Assembly: GCA_013306675.1 (NCBI GenBank)
Contig: JABLUY010000074.1
Location: 80,835-144,834 of the forward strand
Direction: 5' to 3'
Source of the DNA: Thraustochytrium sp. TN22
Lineage: Eukaryota > Sar > Bigyra > Thraustochytrida > Thraustochytriidae
DNA length: 64,000 bases
Shown here: one piece after another, positions 17,991 to 25,335 of the stretch
How positions within the stretch are numbered: position 1 is the stretch's first letter
Layout: each line of letters opens with the position of its first letter
Position numbers and translations under genes: made by a program
Notes under the pieces: model-generated
Told to the model about the DNA's origin: nothing
Database searches by the model: none
The model's input: only the letters and a program-made list of their open reading frames with translations

Positions 17991-19742
17991 TCAGGCAAGC
18001 AGAGACGGCGAAAAGAGTTTCCATGTGCGGTCGTAGGAGGACGTCAGGATGGCGTCTGCGGCGGGGCTCCAAGCCACGCCGGTGACCATCTTGTCGTGCG
18101 CACGAAAGTCCGCCAGGGGGAGACCCTCCGGCGCGTCCCAGAGCTTGACGGACTGGTCGTACGAGGCCGTGGCCAGCACGACTCCGTGCCTCGGGTCGAA
18201 GCGCACGTCGCGCACGACCGACATGTGGCCCGGCAAGGTGTGCAGCGACGAGCCGGCGCGCAGGTCCCACACGCGCGCCGTGTTGTCGGAGGCGCCCGTG
18301 GCCGCCAGGTACCCGTTCAGGGAGAAGTCCGCGGCCAGCACCTGACCGGCATGGCCCTGCAGCGTCTTGACGGCCTTGCCGGACCGCAGGTCCCAGAGCC
18401 GCGCCACGCCGCCCAGGTCGCCCGACAGCGCCAGCGAGCCGTCGGGGTGGAAGGCAAAGGCGTACACGGCGTCGCCATGGCCGTCTTGATGCAGGAGCTG
18501 CGCCCCGGTCTCCACGTCCCAGAGTCGCCACGTCTCGTCGTAGCTCGAGGTACCCAGCAGGGTGCCCATGGGGTGCCACGCCACGCGGCTCAGTCGCTGC
18601 ACGTGGCCCTTGAGTGTCGCCACGGGCCGCAGGCTCCGCGCCAGCTCCGCCTCCTCGGCCTCATCCGCGTCCTGCGCGGCAACTTCCGCCATGTCCACAT
18701 CCACGGCCGCGTCGCCCGACGTGGCCGCGGTGCCCACGGGAACGCGCCACAACTTGGCCGAGCAGTCCGCGGAGGCGGTGGCCACGAAGAAGTGGTCCTG
18801 GCCGGCCGCGGGCGCCGGCGCGTTGCACACCGCCACGTCCACGACGCGGTCCTCGTGGTCCGCCAGCGTCCAGCAGGCCTCGAAGGACGCGCGGTCCCAA
18901 ACGCGCGCCCAGCCCCGCGCGGATCCGGTCACCATGCGCGGGACGTGCGTCGCGATGGCGCAGCACGTGAGCGGCCGGCGGTCGCCGACCTGGCTCGCCT
19001 CCACCGCAAAGTGCTTGAGACCGTCCTCAAAGTCCAGGATGGCGTCGTCCATGCGCAGCAGGGCGTCCTGCGAGGCGGCCTGCGCGCGCTCGCGCTCCAG
19101 CCGCGCGTCGGCGCGCGCCCACGAGAAGCCGCAGATTGCCTTGCGCGCGCGCGTCAACGCCACGCTTGCAGGCGTGTAAAAGGTCTCCTGCTCGGGCCGG
19201 GCCTCGTCCGCGTCGGCGCGGGCCGCGCCGAGGTCCTGGTCCGGCGCCACGCCGCCCTCGGGTAGCGCCAGGTCGCCGCGCCGCGCGGCCGCGCTGGCGC
19301 GCTCCAGGCGCTCCTGCAGGCCCTTGCGCTCGTCAGCGTCCACTTCGAGCAGCGCGAGCTCGTGGCGCAGGCGGTCGCGGCGGTCCGCCTCGCGCTCGCC
19401 GAAGAGGCAGATCGGGTGGCCCAGCTCGCGCAGCTGCGCCTTGACCTCGGCGTCGCCTGTCGGCACGGCCAGCGTGCGCGCGCGCCGCTTGGTCTCCAGC
19501 TCCAGCAGCGCCTCTGCGCGCTTCTCCTGCTCCTCCAGCGCCGCGGCGCTCAGCTCTAGCGTCTCCGCGGCCTCCGAGCTCACGTTCACGTTGCCGCTCG
19601 CCACGGCCGCGCGCAGGTCCTCCGCGTCGTCCTCCGCCGCCGCGCCATGCTCCCCGGCCTCGCCGCGCGCCGCCGCCGCCGCCTCCAGGCTGCCGAAGTG
19701 GACGCGCGCGCGCTTCGCCGGCGGCTCCTCGCCGTCCGCCAT
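17991..19742 (-). CDS. PRPF4: U4/U6 snRNP protein PRP4 (PRPF4)
   Basis: 583 residues from the ATG at 19742 (complement). Residues about 92-140 form the SFM (splicing factor motif) domain, VPTGDAEVKAQLRELGHPIC, diagnostic of PRP4. The C-terminal 340 residues are seven WD40 blades with repeated W/L-W-D endings: RVWDRASF, KLWRVP, RLWDVETG, RLWDLRSG, RVWDLRAG, KLWDAPEG and a terminal KLFSPS. PRP4 bridges PRP3 and the U4/U6 duplex in the tri-snRNP. An in-frame ATG at 19940 would add 66 residues, but these are low complexity and end just 11 bp from the transposon inverted repeat, so the inner start is preferred. Confidence 0.94.
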   Translation of the reverse strand: MADGEEPPAKRARVHFGSLEAAAAARGEAGEHGAAAEDDAEDLRAAVASGNVNVSSEAAETLELSAAALEEQEKRAEALLELETKRRARTLAVPTGDAEVKAQLRELGHPICLFGEREADRRDRLRHELALLEVDADERKGLQERLERASAAARRGDLALPEGGVAPDQDLGAARADADEARPEQETFYTPASVALTRARKAICGFSWARADARLERERAQAASQDALLRMDDAILDFEDGLKHFAVEASQVGDRRPLTCCAIATHVPRMVTGSARGWARVWDRASFEACWTLADHEDRVVDVAVCNAPAPAAGQDHFFVATASADCSAKLWRVPVGTAATSGDAAVDVDMAEVAAQDADEAEEAELARSLRPVATLKGHVQRLSRVAWHPMGTLLGTSSYDETWRLWDVETGAQLLHQDGHGDAVYAFAFHPDGSLALSGDLGGVARLWDLRSGKAVKTLQGHAGQVLAADFSLNGYLAATGASDNTARVWDLRAGSSLHTLPGHMSVVRDVRFDPRHGVVLATASYDQSVKLWDAPEGLPLADFRAHDKMVTGVAWSPAADAILTSSYDRTWKLFSPSLLA

Positions 19743-19950
19743 CGCGCCGCCGCGCCGCCGCGCCGCCGCGCTCGCGCGTTCGCTGTCTGCGCCGGCCTTG
19801 GTTGCAGACCTCGCGCTTGCGGCCGCCGTCGCCGGCGGGGCGGTGGTCGTGGCGGCCGCCGACCCGGACAAGGACCACCTCAACTTCCTTGGAGGGAAAT
19901 GGCCAGCCGCGGACTTGAGACCTGCCTCGCCAGCACGCATGTGCGAAGCT

Positions 19951-19966
19951 AATAGATGAGATGCGC
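19951..19966 (+). repeat. Left terminal inverted repeat
   Basis: AATAGATGAGATGCGC, exact reverse complement of 25320-25335. After the 16 bp the two ends diverge. Confidence 0.88.
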
Positions 19967-20050
19967 TGGGCGAAAATCCAAAAAAACGCCTCCAGCCTAC
20001 CCCCCCCCCCCGCCTGCCCGGGCGCCGGCCGAAAGTCAGGGCGGACAGAA

Positions 20051-20062
20051 GTGGCGCTTCAG
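20051..20062 (+). repeat. Left subterminal inverted repeat
   Basis: GTGGCGCTTCAG, matched in inverse orientation at 25213-25224 at almost the same distance from the element end. A candidate transposase-binding site. Confidence 0.6.
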
Positions 20063-20323
20063 CGCCTCTTGCGCCTTGCCAGAGACATAACGAAGGGCGG
20101 AGGACTCACGCGCGCGGGCTGCAGCGCACGCTGCGTGGCGGGCGCGCAGCGCGGGCAGAGGCGTGGGCGCGGGGGGGAGGGAGGTCGTGTTAGGCTCAAG
20201 CCCTGCGGTTGGCCCTGGCGCGCTCGTAGCCGGTCAGGCAAGAGACCGGAGGGAGCCCTGGACGCACGTGGTCGTTAGGTTGACGCCAAGCCGAAGACCT
20301 CGCTCAAGACACGCCTGGATGAC

Positions 20324-22549
20324 ATGGCGCGCACTCCAAGCATCTGCGTGGTGACCTCGGATGCTGGGCTCAGCCCGGACAAGGTCTTAGAGCCTGCCGG
20401 AGCACAGGCGTCGCCACCGGCGTCACGGTGCACGTGCGAGTTGGCGTGGTGCCAAGCGAAAGACGGTATCTTCCGCACGAGCCAGATCTACAGGAAACGA
20501 CGTTTTCGCGGGGTGGTCTCGAAGAACGCGGAGACGGACTCTGACAAGCAGGATCAGCGTGCGCGAGACCGAATCTTCACCAAGCTGCGGCCGAAGTCTC
20601 AAGCCGAGCTGTCGCCCAACACGAGGGCGCGATTCCGGTGGCACCACTTCCGCCCAGAGTCCTTTCGCTTCGACGAGAAGAAGGGCGACTGGGTTTTGAA
20701 GACGAGCTCGATCACTCAGGTGATAGCGATGGAGACCATGATGACACCGCCACCAACTCGCGAACCAGCCGTGTGGAACTCGAGCAGGTGGGTTCTTCAA
20801 CACGAGAGTGCCACGCCGACTTCAACGGCGGAGCGAAGACTCGCGAGTCAAGTTGCGTCTCCGGAACGCAAGGCTCTTGGGCGCCGCGCTCATTCGGCCG
20901 CTCGTGCAGCCGAAAGTGATCGGGAGCACGCGCAGCAGCAGCTGGAGAAGAAGAGAAAGGCCGAGACTGCCCTCGCGCTGCGACGAGCAACGGAGGCCGA
21001 GGCGAAGCTGTCACGCCAAGTTCACGAAGCTAGCGTCGCAGAGTCTAGAATCAGGGCAAACTCGGAGCTGACAGTGGCGGCTTCTGTATCCCGCCAGATG
21101 CTGAAATTCAAGGAGATGATGAAGGCGAGGAATGCTGCCAAGGGTTCTCAGCGTTCGGCAGAAAAGGCCACCTTCGACGCGATCGTCCTGGACCTGAAAG
21201 CCGACAAGGCAAAGCTTAAAGCCGACAAGGCAAAGCTAGAGCACGACAAGGCGAAGCTGCAGGCCGACAAGGCGAAGCTGCAGGCCGACAAGGCGAAGCT
21301 GGAGGCCGACATGGCCTTGTTTCAGTCGATGTTAGCTTGCGCCGACACCGAGAAAGAGAAGATCAGGGCGAGCACGGTTGATGCCGAGGCACGGATCAAA
21401 GCTCTGCAGACGGAACTCTCCCACTCAAAGGCGGCCAACGAAGAGAACGAGCAGGTGATCAAGATTCTCAGTGCGACTCGCACTGAGGCAGACCCTCTTC
21501 GGTGGAACGTGTTCAAGTCAACACGGCGCTTCGCCGACAAGATCAAGTTCTATACTGGGGTGTCAAGTGTCAAATGCTTCGAAAAATTGGTTTCGCTCGC
21601 TCGCGTCGCTGGTGGAGACGACGCCCTGCAGCGCCCTGCAAGCACCGCGGCCTGGAAGGCTTTCAAGGAGGGCAATAGGGACTTAAAGCCCCAGTACGTG
21701 AGCACCAGAATGACGTCCAAGTCCGCCTCAACCAGCGCGTCGTGCCGGAGTAGCGCAGCCCGCCTCGTGCTCGAAGATCGCCTTCTCATGACGCTGATGA
21801 TCCTGCGCCTGAACCTGAGCCAGGTAGTAATCGGATCGCTGTTCGGCGTGAACCAGGGCACAGTCTCGCGCAACTTCGAGTTCGGGATCCAGACGCTGTA
21901 CGAGGTCTTCAGCCATGGCTTGGAGACACCTGACTCAGAGATGCTGAAAGCGTCCTGCCCCGACAAGGTCAAGAAAAAGTTCGGGAATCACATGATCAGC
22001 TGGCTCCTCGACGCGACGGAGCTCGAGATTCAGGTCCCCGATAACCCTCTAGCGCAGAGTGCGACCTGGAGCGAGTATAAGTCGCGCAACACTGCGAAGC
22101 TGCTCTTAGGTTTGACTCCTAGCGGCTACGTTGGTTGGGCTTCCCAGGCCTACCCGGGCAGGATCTCCGATCCTGTGATCACGGAGCGCTCGGGGTTCTA
22201 CTCGGAGTGTGTGCACCCAACTCAAACCATCATGGCGGACAAGGGCTTCATGTTGCATGCGCCGCTGGCCAGCCGTGGTGCGCAGCTCTACGTTCCGCCC
22301 AAGCGATTCAAGGGTCAAAAGGTGCTGTCTCAAAGCGAGGCAAACGATACCCGCAAGATTGCCAACTTTCGCATTCACGTGGAGCGAGCAATTAACCGTG
22401 TCAAGGACTTCCATTGGCTCACGAGTAAGGTTGCACTCCACCAAGCTGACCTGATTACACCTGCCTTCAAGGTCGCTTGCTACATCACTGCACTATGCGG
22501 CCCTCCAATCACCGCACCTTCAAACACCGCATCAAGCGGAAAAAAATGA
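20324..22549 (+). CDS. THAP-like, HTH and DDE transposase (IS5/PIF-Harbinger-related)
   Basis: 741 residues from ATG 20324. N-terminal residues about 35-125 resemble a THAP C2CH finger (CTCELAWC ... FRWHHFRPESFRF), but the third ligand Cys is Arg, so the finger is degenerate or divergent. Residues about 195-390 form a long coiled coil with KADKAKL heptad-like repeats. A helix-turn-helix (LSQVVIGSLFGVNQGTVSRN) lies near residue 505. The RNase-H-like DDE domain follows: D563 (LLDATELE), D639 (IMADKGFML) and E687 (HVERAINRVK), with spacing typical of DDE_Tnp_4. All three catalytic acids are intact and there is no frameshift. Its stop is 3 bp from the stop of the convergent SWIM gene. G+C is visibly lower than in flanking housekeeping genes. 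Confidence 0.92.
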   Translation: MARTPSICVVTSDAGLSPDKVLEPAGAQASPPASRCTCELAWCQAKDGIFRTSQIYRKRRFRGVVSKNAETDSDKQDQRARDRIFTKLRPKSQAELSPNTRARFRWHHFRPESFRFDEKKGDWVLKTSSITQVIAMETMMTPPPTREPAVWNSSRWVLQHESATPTSTAERRLASQVASPERKALGRRAHSAARAAESDREHAQQQLEKKRKAETALALRRATEAEAKLSRQVHEASVAESRIRANSELTVAASVSRQMLKFKEMMKARNAAKGSQRSAEKATFDAIVLDLKADKAKLKADKAKLEHDKAKLQADKAKLQADKAKLEADMALFQSMLACADTEKEKIRASTVDAEARIKALQTELSHSKAANEENEQVIKILSATRTEADPLRWNVFKSTRRFADKIKFYTGVSSVKCFEKLVSLARVAGGDDALQRPASTAAWKAFKEGNRDLKPQYVSTRMTSKSASTSASCRSSAARLVLEDRLLMTLMILRLNLSQVVIGSLFGVNQGTVSRNFEFGIQTLYEVFSHGLETPDSEMLKASCPDKVKKKFGNHMISWLLDATELEIQVPDNPLAQSATWSEYKSRNTAKLLLGLTPSGYVGWASQAYPGRISDPVITERSGFYSECVHPTQTIMADKGFMLHAPLASRGAQLYVPPKRFKGQKVLSQSEANDTRKIANFRIHVERAINRVKDFHWLTSKVALHQADLITPAFKVACYITALCGPPITAPSNTASSGKK
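21196..21310 (+). repeat. In-frame 21-bp tandem repeats coding KADKAKL units
   Basis: Repeats of GCCGACAAGGCAAAGCT-type sequence encode about five heptad units (KADKAKL, EHDKAKL, QADKAKL, QADKAKL, EADMALF) in the transposase coiled coil. They indicate recent in-frame slippage. Confidence 0.85.
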
Positions 22550-22552
22550 TCT

Positions 22553-23755
22553 TTACCACATGTCAGGACTCTCGTCAGAGTGCTCGTCGAAGATGGGATC
22601 GAGGGCCAACTCGGTGGATTCGTCGATGGGGAGCTGGTCGAGGCCGGTTCTGCGTAGCTCCGCAGCAGCACGGTCCTTCCAGAAATTCTTGGACACGAAA
22701 CCGTTCAGCACCGGCGTAAACATTTGCGAGGCGGCAGACTCCCCACCTGGGCATGTCTCTGCGCCCGCCGCGATGCACTCAGCTAATGCTTTCACGTAGT
22801 TGCTGTTGCGGCCCCTCTCGGCGATGTCGCGCAGTGTTGCAGCATGGACCTCGGGAGGAAACGGGTTGTACTCGAGTCGGCCAAGAGTGTTCTGCCGGCA
22901 GACGGGTTCGCCGTATCGCCTTTTCTTCGCACGAGGGGTTCGCTGGGCTCGCTCGAAGATGAGGTAGGCGAGGGGGTTATTTACCAGGTCCTCGTCTGCC
23001 TCTTGCCTCGGCCGGTTCCACTCGCACCTCCTGTCGGTGGCAGGGCCGTCTTCACAATGGTCACGTTTGAGGTTTTGGACGGCCTGCAGCAGTGCGCTCA
23101 CATGCACACAGCCGCTGTCGGCACGCGCCGCGGGACACTCGCACATTTGGTCCTTGATCTTGGTGATGACCGGGGGCCGGTTGTTTGGGCGCCACTGGAC
23201 CTCGCATTTGGCGTAGACCTGATACACGCCGTTGACCATTGACCTCGGGCAGAGAAGCCTGAGCCAGCAGGTGTCAGGGAAGCGATCGCCATTGCTCGGG
23301 TAGTAGGCGCCGAATCCGCGCAGGTGTGTGCGGAAGCAGATGCGCTTGTAGCCCTTCTCAAGCACCCCGTCCTTCGTGCATACGTCCTTGAAGTGCGCTT
23401 GCAAGACCGTCTCGGAGACAACTGGCGCGCGCTCTTGCATCTCACCGATGTTCGAGATCCAGTCCTCATTCTGAATGCCCTTGAGCATCGAGCTGACCTC
23501 GGCGTTGTCGATGAGTGGGAGCTCGTGGGTTCTGCGCCCGTTATTGCGCAAGATTTGGAGAGCGCTCAGGACTTCTGGGCAGCGTAAGTTGGTGAGCGCT
23601 TTGTGCTCCTTGCGTGCCTCCTCCTCAACGCGCAGCTGCGTTCGAACATCAGCGTGGAGCTCAGCCACCTTTCTGTTGCCCGGAGACTGACCGCGAGTGC
23701 GAAGTCAGCGAGCCAGCTGCGCTTGCTTGGCCGTATCTACCTCGCTTTCAGCCAT
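22553..23755 (-). CDS. SWIM zinc-finger protein of the transposon (second accessory protein)
   Basis: The main exon is the complement of 22553-23686. No ATG opens its frame before residue SSMLKG. A 54-nt intron (23740-23687, donor GTAGAT, branch-like CTGAC, acceptor GGTCAG) would join it in phase 0 to ATGGCTGAAAGCGAG at 23755-23741, giving 382 residues. That 5' end is tentative. The SWIM finger is CECPAARADSGCVH (CxC-x8-CxH). Downstream features (CEWNRP, LIFERA, YNPFPPE) resemble what follows SWIM in the SWIM-YqaJ proteins of ISL2EU-like transposons, but no YqaJ nuclease motif is visible. The tentative ATG overlaps the stop of the FEN1-like gene. Confidence 0.65.
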
Positions 23756-25049
23756 CTTGGCCCTCGGTGAGATCGACAGTCTCAAAGCCATCCTGGGGTT
23801 GCACTTTGGTGACCCCGTCACCCACGTCGTGTTGCTTGGACGCACGGCCGTCGCACTCACACGTCCCGCGGAGGCCGTTGCACTCGCAGTCACACGTCTC
23901 GCGGAGGCCGTTGCACTCACACCTCTCGCGGAGGCAACGTAGCCCCAGCGCGATGAGGTCAACGTGATCCCTGTCAAAGCCTGTCTTGCCGACGAGCGCC
24001 GACACGTCGGTCTCGGCCAGCACGTCCAAATCCAGCGAGTCGACCTTTCCCGAGGCGAGGAAGAGCCCAACGCCAGCGAGAAGACCGCCCTTTGCCGTCT
24101 TCATCTGCAAGCAGACTTCCTCCTTCAGCGCCCGGGGCCAACCCATGTGCGCGATGAGCTTGCCGGCGAGCTTCTCGGGCTTGAGCCACTCCGTTACGTC
24201 CACCTGCTCATCAAGAAGCTTGTCGAGGACGCGGAGCGCCGTCAAAGGCCCAACGCCCCTGATGTCGTGGTAGTCAGTCTTGACGAGCAGTGCGTACGCC
24301 AAGCACACGGCAGCCGCCGCAACCTGGGGCTCGCAGTCTTTCTCATCTGCGAGCTCGTCGATGATGTGTCCAAGGTCACGTTGACACGCTTCCCCGGACT
24401 CTTCGTCCAGAGGCGCTGTAGGTCCGGCAGGCTCGAAGAGGGTTCCCATGCCGGCATGCCAGTCTCCAGAAGGTACGACGAGGAGGTTGCCTCCTTCGTG
24501 CACGAGCATGTCCGAGTCGACCGAGATGATGTATTGAATGGTCTGTTCGCGAAGCATCGCCACGAGAGTGTGGTCTGCGGCGGAAGGCGCCACCCGGGAC
24601 GCGAATCCACACTCGCGCAGCCGACGCAGGACCGCAGAGACGAGCTCTCGCGAGCCGCCGGCGTTGACCTTGGAGAGCTTCTCCAAAAGATCGGGAGGAG
24701 GCTCTTCACCCTTTGCAGCGTGCTCCTGAAGCTGACTTGCTAGGGCGTCGGCCTTGTCCTTGCGCTTCTTGCTTCTCGCCGAGTTTGTACGACACTTCAT
24801 CGGAGTTGGCGCCCCATCAAAGGCAACGATGGGCCTCGCACCCATTCTTTTGAGCTCCGTGAGCCGACTGACAAAGCTCTCCACGGTCTTGGTGAAGTTC
24901 TTCTTCGTGATGTCCTCGTGCATGACACTCACGTACATGTGGAGCCAGACAGAGGCGTCCACGCCGACGTCCTTGTCGGACAAGAGCTCGCAGAGCTTGA
25001 CCTCGCGCGACTTGGATGCCAGAAGCCGCCGAAGGCCAGTAACGCCCAT
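23748..25049 (-). CDS. FEN1/XPG-like structure-specific nuclease carried by the transposon
   Basis: 433 residues from the ATG at 25049 (complement). The start MGVTGLRRLLAS matches the MGIxGL N-terminus of FEN1/XPG/EXO1 nucleases, whose alpha-amine sits in the active site. Metal ligands are seen at D31 (GVDASVWLHM), D78 (VAFDGAPTP), D178 and D180 (SVDSDMLVHE) and D259 (VKTDY). The H3TH motif DIRGVGPLTALRVL follows. The conserved APSEAE reads APSAAD, so the first Glu ligand is Ala157 and the second is Asp159. The C-terminus has a short Cys-rich repeat (CECNGLRETCDC). No PCNA-binding box is recognised. It probably cleaves flaps or gap structures during transposition; no host role is implied. Confidence 0.85.
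   Translation of the reverse strand: MGVTGLRRLLASKSREVKLCELLSDKDVGVDASVWLHMYVSVMHEDITKKNFTKTVESFVSRLTELKRMGARPIVAFDGAPTPMKCRTNSARSKKRKDKADALASQLQEHAAKGEEPPPDLLEKLSKVNAGGSRELVSAVLRRLRECGFASRVAPSAADHTLVAMLREQTIQYIISVDSDMLVHEGGNLLVVPSGDWHAGMGTLFEPAGPTAPLDEESGEACQRDLGHIIDELADEKDCEPQVAAAAVCLAYALLVKTDYHDIRGVGPLTALRVLDKLLDEQVDVTEWLKPEKLAGKLIAHMGWPRALKEEVCLQMKTAKGGLLAGVGLFLASGKVDSLDLDVLAETDVSALVGKTGFDRDHVDLIALGLRCLRERCECNGLRETCDCECNGLRGTCECDGRASKQHDVGDGVTKVQPQDGFETVDLTEGQDG
23855..23935. repeat. Short tandem repeat coding the Cys-rich tail of the FEN1-like protein
   Basis: Three near-identical units of about 27-33 bp containing CGCGGAGGCCGTTGCACTC, coding repeated CECNGLRET/CECNGLRGT-type peptides. 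Confidence 0.8.
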
Positions 25050-25319
25050 CCTGGCTGAGAAGCAAGAGGCGCGAACGCAGGCGCGCTGCCCAGCTCTCCC
25101 GGCCCACCCCTGCCGCGCTGCCGCCTTGCTCCGCGCCTCCGCGTCAGCGTCCGCCGCGGCGACTCGAGGCTACAGTTATGTTGGCTCGCGCGTCGCTCGC
25201 GCTGCTCAGAGCCTGAAGCGCCACGCGAGAGGTGAACAAAAAAAGGAAAATGCGTTGCGGAAGCCGCAAAGGGGTAGCGGACGAGTCTCCTCGGCGCTCC
25301 CTCCTTGGCGCGGAGGGCG
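25050..25319. other. Right non-coding arm of the transposon
   Basis: 270 nt between the FEN1-like start and the right terminal repeat. It holds the subterminal inverted repeat at 25213-25224 and must also contain the promoter of the minus-strand genes. An A-run lies at 25238-25244. Confidence 0.55.
25213..25224 (-). repeat. Right subterminal inverted repeat
   Basis: CTGAAGCGCCAC, exact reverse complement of 20051-20062. Confidence 0.6.
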
Positions 25320-25335
25320 GCGCATCTCATCTATT
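25320..25335 (-). repeat. Right terminal inverted repeat
   Basis: GCGCATCTCATCTATT, exact reverse complement of 19951-19966. The TA at 25332-25333 mirrors the TA at 19953-19954. Confidence 0.88.

Follow-up and report, generated by a model that had tools for sequence, protein, structure and literature searches.

An ISL2EU-like DNA transposon with a predicted XPG/EXO1-family nuclease gene on contig JABLUY010000074.1

The window, the whole 64,000-nucleotide stretch of contig JABLUY010000074.1 analysed here (assembly GCA_013306675.1, positions 80,835 to 144,834), contains a 5.4-kb repeated unit at window positions 19951 to 25335 with three long open frames. Gene 1 (20324..22549, plus strand) encodes a 741-amino-acid (aa) transposase. 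Encoded on the opposite strand are gene 2 (22553..23755), for a SAP/SWIM-like protein, and gene 3 (23748..25049), for a 433-aa nuclease of the XPG/EXO1 family, the gene 3 stop overlapping the gene 2 ATG by 8 nt. The unit is a real DNA transposon. Judged by its sequence features, it is best filed as a PHIS (PIF/Harbinger-ISL2EU-Spy) element, a variant resembling ISL2EU but equipped with another nuclease.

The genome that holds the window (37.9 Mb in 453 contigs, GC-rich) was searched with 401 bp from each element end, and nine matching regions were compared against the element plus 1 kb of flank per side. Four copies are near-identical: the window copy (C425 in the copy comparisons), C88, C398 and C177. 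C88 and C398 are 99.7% and 99.2% identical to the window element from end to end, and in both the homology breaks off no more than 2 bases from 19951 and 25335, where unrelated flanks begin. C177 matches the window over 5,335 bp and shows zero differences from C88 over that length; the first 50 bp of C177 lie inside a 515-N assembly gap. Two contig-end fragments preserve approximately 55-59 bp each, C24 from the left element end and C399 from the right. The older copies are C267, which keeps both ends (96% identity over the main stretch), C73, of which only the right end with genes 2 and 3 is left (95% identity), and C111, a degraded remnant; C291 is a more distant relative (approximately 77-79% identity). 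Transposition is well supported and recent because near-identical 5.4-kb copies with exact ends lie at unrelated sites. The sequence-only reading had proposed an element between 19951 and 25335, to be abandoned if homology in other copies continued past either position; the unit proved to be multicopy at unrelated sites, and within its own genome the homology stops there. At C73 (L023 256-5594), a 2.4-kb tandem duplication (97% identity) takes in the right end of the copy.

The outer ends form a perfect 16-nt inverted repeat (19951-19966 and 25320-25335), which had been taken as a 16-bp terminal inverted repeat (TIR) beside a TA target duplication. The repeat exists, but a better reading divides it into a 13-bp TIR and, next to it, an AT duplicated within an A|AT|T target. 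So divided, the 5' TIR AGATGAGATGCGC would occupy 19954..19966 (plus strand) and is identical in five of the eight tabulated copies (C425, C88, C398, C267 and C24; in C177, C399 and C73 it is absent or unassembled). The 3' TIR GCGCATCTCATCT would occupy 25320..25332 (minus strand) and is identical in six copies (C425, C88, C398, C177, C267 and C399), C73 being without its last T and C24 not reaching the 3' end. Outside the 5' TIR, the target bases A and AT (19951..19953) read AAT at C425, C88 and C24, GAT at C398 and TCC at C267; outside the 3' TIR, AT and T (25333..25335) read ATT at C425, C88, C398, C177, C399 and C73 and GAA at C267. The paired flanks are AAT..ATT at C425 and C88 and GAT..ATT at C398, and fit AT within A|AT|T better than TA. 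The ends are symmetric, and the AT duplication, the proposed 2-bp target duplication, fits three of the four copies with both ends on one contig, the exception being C267. Because the flanks fit the published ISL2EU target A|AT|T, the element would run from 19954 to 25332, a length of 5,379 bp. The subterminal repeats noted earlier are also seen: a perfect 12-nt inverted pair consists of GTGGCGCTTCAG at 20051..20062 (plus strand; also in C267) and CTGAAGCGCCAC at 25213..25224 (minus strand; kept in C267, mostly deleted in C73), although it is one of seven inverted pairs listed and could be due to chance on length alone.

The gene 1 frame is open in all five copies compared (C425, C88, C177, C398 and C267), running further at its end in C267. 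Stops interrupt the transposase relatives at C291, C216 and C396. Pfam identifies an HTH_Tnp_4 helix-turn-helix (HTH) domain at aa 480-529 (21761..21910; E=3.5e-12) and a DDE_Tnp_4 domain at aa 562-721 (22007..22486; E=1.3e-33) with the triad D563, D639 and E687, so that the intact DDE triad of the sequence-only reading holds. A repeat with a 21-bp period (21173..21336) encodes a lysine-rich coiled coil, from which C267 lacks two units (14 aa). The THAP finger of the same reading is reduced to a THAP-like zinc-finger candidate (20429..20665; CTCELAWC ... WHHFRPESF): the N-terminal 169 aa of gene 1 match no Pfam family at E<=10 and show only a THAP-like C..C / HHFxPxSF pattern, common to the C20 and C216 relatives. 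This N-terminus resembles a THAP finger that lacks its usual third cysteine. Between the window copy and C267, gene 1 has 19 silent and 35 amino-acid-changing differences, a ratio of amino-acid-changing to silent rates (dN/dS) of 0.56 (one-sided P 0.037), that is, fewer amino-acid changes than the neutral expectation.

Two loci elsewhere in the genome carry proteins related to the transposase. At C20 (L062 1435-2607), an intact 390-aa frame resembles only the transposase N-terminus (THAP-like finger and coiled coil, approximately 50% identity), with no DDE domain found in the 3.8 kb covered at this locus; it is possibly a domesticated gene or a repressor. At C27 (L069), a distant DDE_Tnp_4 protein lies in an open frame of 1520 codons and might be a domesticated transposase.

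The nuclease encoded by gene 3 contains an XPG_N domain in all five copies scanned (E=2.8e-15 in the window copy) and an XPG_I domain above the curated cut-off in four of them (C88, C398, C267 and C73), the exception being the window copy (18.5 bits versus 30.9 in C88; cut-off 24.9). Compared by sequence with PDB entries, the C88 protein matches RAD2 (1.1e-11), EXO1 (4.4e-11) and FEN1 (5.6e-7); it has VAPYEAD and a DSD motif in common with EXO1, and its acidic motifs align to EXO1 and RAD2. The combination of XPG_N, XPG_I and conserved acidic residues predicts a member of the XPG/Rad2 family; a single-sequence AlphaFold model has a mean pLDDT of 39.1. The active-site motif reads VAPYEAD in C88, C177, C398 and C267, VAPYEAN in C73 and VAPSAAD in the window.

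Gene 2 comprises 400 codons from the ATG at 23755. An in-frame stop occurs at codon 17 in five of six copies (C425, C88, C177, C267 and C73), the frame starting at 23668 being the part downstream of it, and all 400 codons are open in C398. Since copies with this stop have been amplified, full-length gene 2 would be either unneeded in cis or supplied by copies like C398. The protein contains SAP-like (LARWLRTRG..GNRKVAEL), SWIM-like (CEC(P)..CVH) and CEWNRPR motifs; the zinc motif CECPAARADSGCVH (23102..23143, minus strand), which we take to be SWIM-like, has Tyr for its last Cys in C267. No match to gene 2 was obtained in Pfam or PDB at E<=10, and one PHROG was matched at E 0.29. No YqaJ domain was detected by Pfam (E<=10), a search whose reach ends short of a remote fold (AlphaFold model mean pLDDT 36.9), and the sole YqaJ match in the genome, at C78, is not similar to gene 2. 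Short gene 2-like stretches adjoin the relatives C291 (E 5e-5) and C396 (E 6e-4); thus, gene 2 is probably old in the lineage. Splicing of gene 3 to gene 2 seems less likely: a GT..AG pair is present, but C398 keeps this stretch in frame, and its removal would lose the SAP-like core.

The window copy itself is probably damaged. Over the whole element it differs from C88 and from C177 by 14 mismatches, all of them transversions and all within 77 bp of gene 3 (24579..24655, minus strand), where they alter the VAPYEA active-site motif; C88 has one further 1-bp gap. C398, C267 and C73 agree with C88 at 14 of 14 patch sites, and C111 is gapped there. With an even spread, the chance of 13 further mismatches in the same 77 bp is approximately (77/5379)^13 = 1e-24. 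The patch may be either a real mutation cluster or a sequencing or assembly fault. As given, gene 3 of the window encodes a nuclease without the active-site Glu. The element had been described as complete and probably autonomous; because gene 2 is interrupted at codon 17 and gene 3 no longer encodes the VAPYEA motif, kept in five other aligned copies, the window copy is probably not autonomous, and any mobilisation of it probably depends on other copies.

The copies are also mosaic. C398 has 40 mismatches to the window over the whole element, one of them in gene 1; in the aligned half, the differences comprise 25 sites within 24106-23181, the 14 patch sites, a 1-bp gap and one end position. 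C267 and C73, 4-5% diverged elsewhere, show zero differences from the window at 24164-23181 and 24075-23259, respectively. This zone, at 23181-24164 of the window with its counterparts in L017, L019 and L023, looks like gene conversion between copies, and such mosaicism is consistent with copy-templated repair.

The element has the DDE_Tnp_4-type catalytic domain of PHIS elements (E=1.3e-33) and their TIRs with a 0-4 bp duplication, the TIRs here being 13 bp long and bordered by AT at either end in C425, C88 and C398 but not in C267. ISL2EU, which has been grouped with Spy (PMC12730594), duplicates AT between an A and a T (target A|AT|T), averages 4,840 bp in length and, in the 2015 survey, is represented by animal families throughout (Han et al. 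2015, PMC4482050); the second open reading frame (ORF) of most of its autonomous candidates encodes a YqaJ exonuclease (PMC4482050, PMC9179366). The element resembles ISL2EU in its DDE and HTH transposase, the AT duplication in A|AT|T proposed for it, a length of approximately 5 kb and an extra ORF for a DNA-processing or DNA-binding protein. It differs in TIRs that start AG instead of the usual GG, in the lack of a YqaJ domain detectable at the sequence level, in its separate XPG/EXO1-family gene and in having only a THAP-like finger. It is filed as ISL2EU-like and not as canonical ISL2EU because a YqaJ domain and a GG start were looked for and not found.

Spy also has a PHIS transposase with an HTH and an AT-rich target, but it inserts at AAATTT without a target duplication and usually has just one ORF (PMC4482050, PMC9179366), whereas the element has three genes and, in three copies, AT on both sides. 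Pangu TIRs often start with AG and the Pangu second ORF has no known domains; however, Pangu duplicates a 3-bp ANT, and the 3-mers here differ (AAT versus ATT). AcademX elements carry an XPG-type nuclease, but have 3-4 bp duplications and a different transposase family, in contrast to the DDE_Tnp_4 transposase and the 2-bp AT proposed here; membership of Academ/AcademX does not fit. AcademX has been described as a DNA transposon lineage encoding a nuclease (PMC10045372). The further copies, the ends, both transposase domains (DDE and HTH) and the target site support the earlier view of an IS5/PIF-type, ISL2EU-like eukaryotic transposon. The gene content, already called unusual, is so in a way not named then: an XPG/EXO1-family nuclease accompanies a SAP/SWIM-like protein without detectable YqaJ. 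The new point is this separate nuclease gene in an ISL2EU-like element. No paper linking ISL2EU, Academ or DNA transposons with XPG was found in a literature search that excluded most subscription papers and Repbase, and the evidence for novelty is weak for that reason.

The best explanation overall, which is probably correct, is a cut-and-paste PHIS transposon, closest to ISL2EU in target and domains, that inserts at RATT with an AT duplication and has the products of genes 2 and 3 as helpers. The transposase would bind the TIRs and subterminal repeats through its N-terminal finger, its HTH or both, excise the element and insert it at RATT with a 2-nt stagger, leaving the AT duplication. The SAP/SWIM-like protein would act as a DNA-binding partner and the EXO1/XPG-like nuclease in DNA processing, in place of the YqaJ exonuclease of ISL2EU. 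The nuclease could resect the donor break, with repair from another copy refilling the donor site, or alternatively it could trim flaps at insertion. More tentatively, an ISL2EU lineage may have swapped its nuclease, the SAP/SWIM-like gene having lost YqaJ, in whose place an EXO1/XPG-type 5' nuclease gene would now be a working part of transposition. A swapped nuclease would promote donor-break resection and copy-templated repair, and would also explain the gene-conversion mosaics.

Several points weigh against helper-assisted insertion with an AT duplication. The helper roles are assigned by homology alone, and the homology of gene 2 to the ISL2EU second gene depends on motifs that ISL2EU second genes carry ahead of their YqaJ domain. 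Pairwise dN/dS in gene 2 (frame 22556-23668, distinct full-length copies) is 0.88-1.78, indicating no constraint. In gene 3, the comparison of C88 with C267 is not significant (8 silent and 14 changing differences; P 0.13), and that of C88 with C73 is near neutral by ratio (dN/dS 0.79). All of the P values apply gene 1 site proportions to both genes, and the several comparisons are uncorrected. C267 shows no duplication and misses approximately four target bases. Of the alignment of copy ends and empty sites proposed by the sequence-only reading, the ends could be provided; for the four young insertions (C425, C88, C398 and the presumed pair C24/C399), a joined-flank search with 44 matches and 40 scored candidates found no empty site.

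Segmental duplication or faulty assembly, in place of transposition, is a most improbable source of the repeats. The assembly is indeed fragmented at the element, with C24 and C399 ending in it and the N gap alongside C177, and C73 has its tandem duplication, but the homology in C88 and C398 goes no further than the TIRs at either end, the flanks there being unrelated, and five copies preserve an intact transposase frame. It is unlikely, but less far-fetched, that insertion is Spy-like with zero duplication, the 16-bp repeat belonging wholly to the element, or that TA is the duplicated target. The outer bases are symmetric; therefore, AAT|..|ATT, AA|TA..TA|TT and a 16-bp TIR without duplication look identical in the young copies, and C267 does lack a duplication. 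Yet the 5' side of C398 is GAT, and C267 has the same 13-bp ends without AAT or ATT outside. C267 sits in a dispersed repeat, recognised in the joined-flank search; of 11 paralogous sites fetched and aligned (72-87% identity), three have, like C267, GAAGTTCC ahead of the site and read GATT, eight read AGTT and none has TA. At C177, a HECT frame is cut after ...FWELMTE at GAA|T. A GAATTN target would give TTN (F or L) as the next codon, and the HECT paralogue at C423 has a hydrophobic L at about that place, so the junction is weakly consistent with GAATTN.

A further alternative, possible if somewhat doubtful, is that the nuclease gene is captured host cargo without a part in transposition, the rest being an ordinary ISL2EU-like element. 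Transposons capture host genes, and no gene 3 remnant was found in the limited flanks available beside the relatives C216, C396, C291 and C20. In the window copy, a damaged nuclease gene sits in an otherwise fresh element, and some of the gene 3 comparisons are near neutral. On the other hand, gene 3 is an open frame in all six copies that keep that half of the element (C425, C88, C177, C398, C267 and C73), and a broken remnant persists in C111. Other gene 3 matches in the genome, at three places, are just 26-35% identical, which argues against recent capture from a gene in the assembly. The comparison of C398 with C267 (14 silent and 18 changing differences; P 0.0095) indicates constraint.

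If the nuclease acts in transposition, as the helper model proposes, two unrelated folds, YqaJ and EXO1/XPG, would do the same job in one transposon group, and the reason for a nuclease in such elements would become testable. The element would add a transposon type carrying an XPG/EXO1-family gene. ISL2EU-like elements would also extend beyond the animals of the 2015 survey, provided that the host is not an animal.

Short non-autonomous derivatives with the same ends had also been suggested as a target for searching. The 15-mer ATAGATGAGATGCGC has 61 matches in the genome (9 exact, 0 with one mismatch and 52 with two). All nine exact matches are ends of young copies or contig-end fragments, and no family of miniature inverted-repeat transposable elements with exact ends is evident in this genome by the 15-mer search. 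Of the two-mismatch matches, four lie at C73 and C267 and 48 elsewhere; the two-mismatch matches exceed the 14 given by the backward pattern used as control. Scans of viral contigs with the three proteins, sensitive to close relatives only, gave 0, 5 and 10 pattern matches, none of which was confirmed.

The dispersed repeat that holds C267 (L019 around 2413 and 7708; L070-L080) has a CTAG-rich tail and may be a short interspersed element; ARAGORN found no tRNA in the four loci scanned. The C177 copy (L018 7621-9570) breaks the HECT ubiquitin-ligase frame inside its catalytic domain (Pfam HECT 2-224 of 306), and this insertion is perhaps segregating or very recent. In the window, a PRP4-like WD40 splicing-factor gene occupies 17991-19940 on the minus strand; the element lies just upstream of it, approximately 14 bp from its first ATG.

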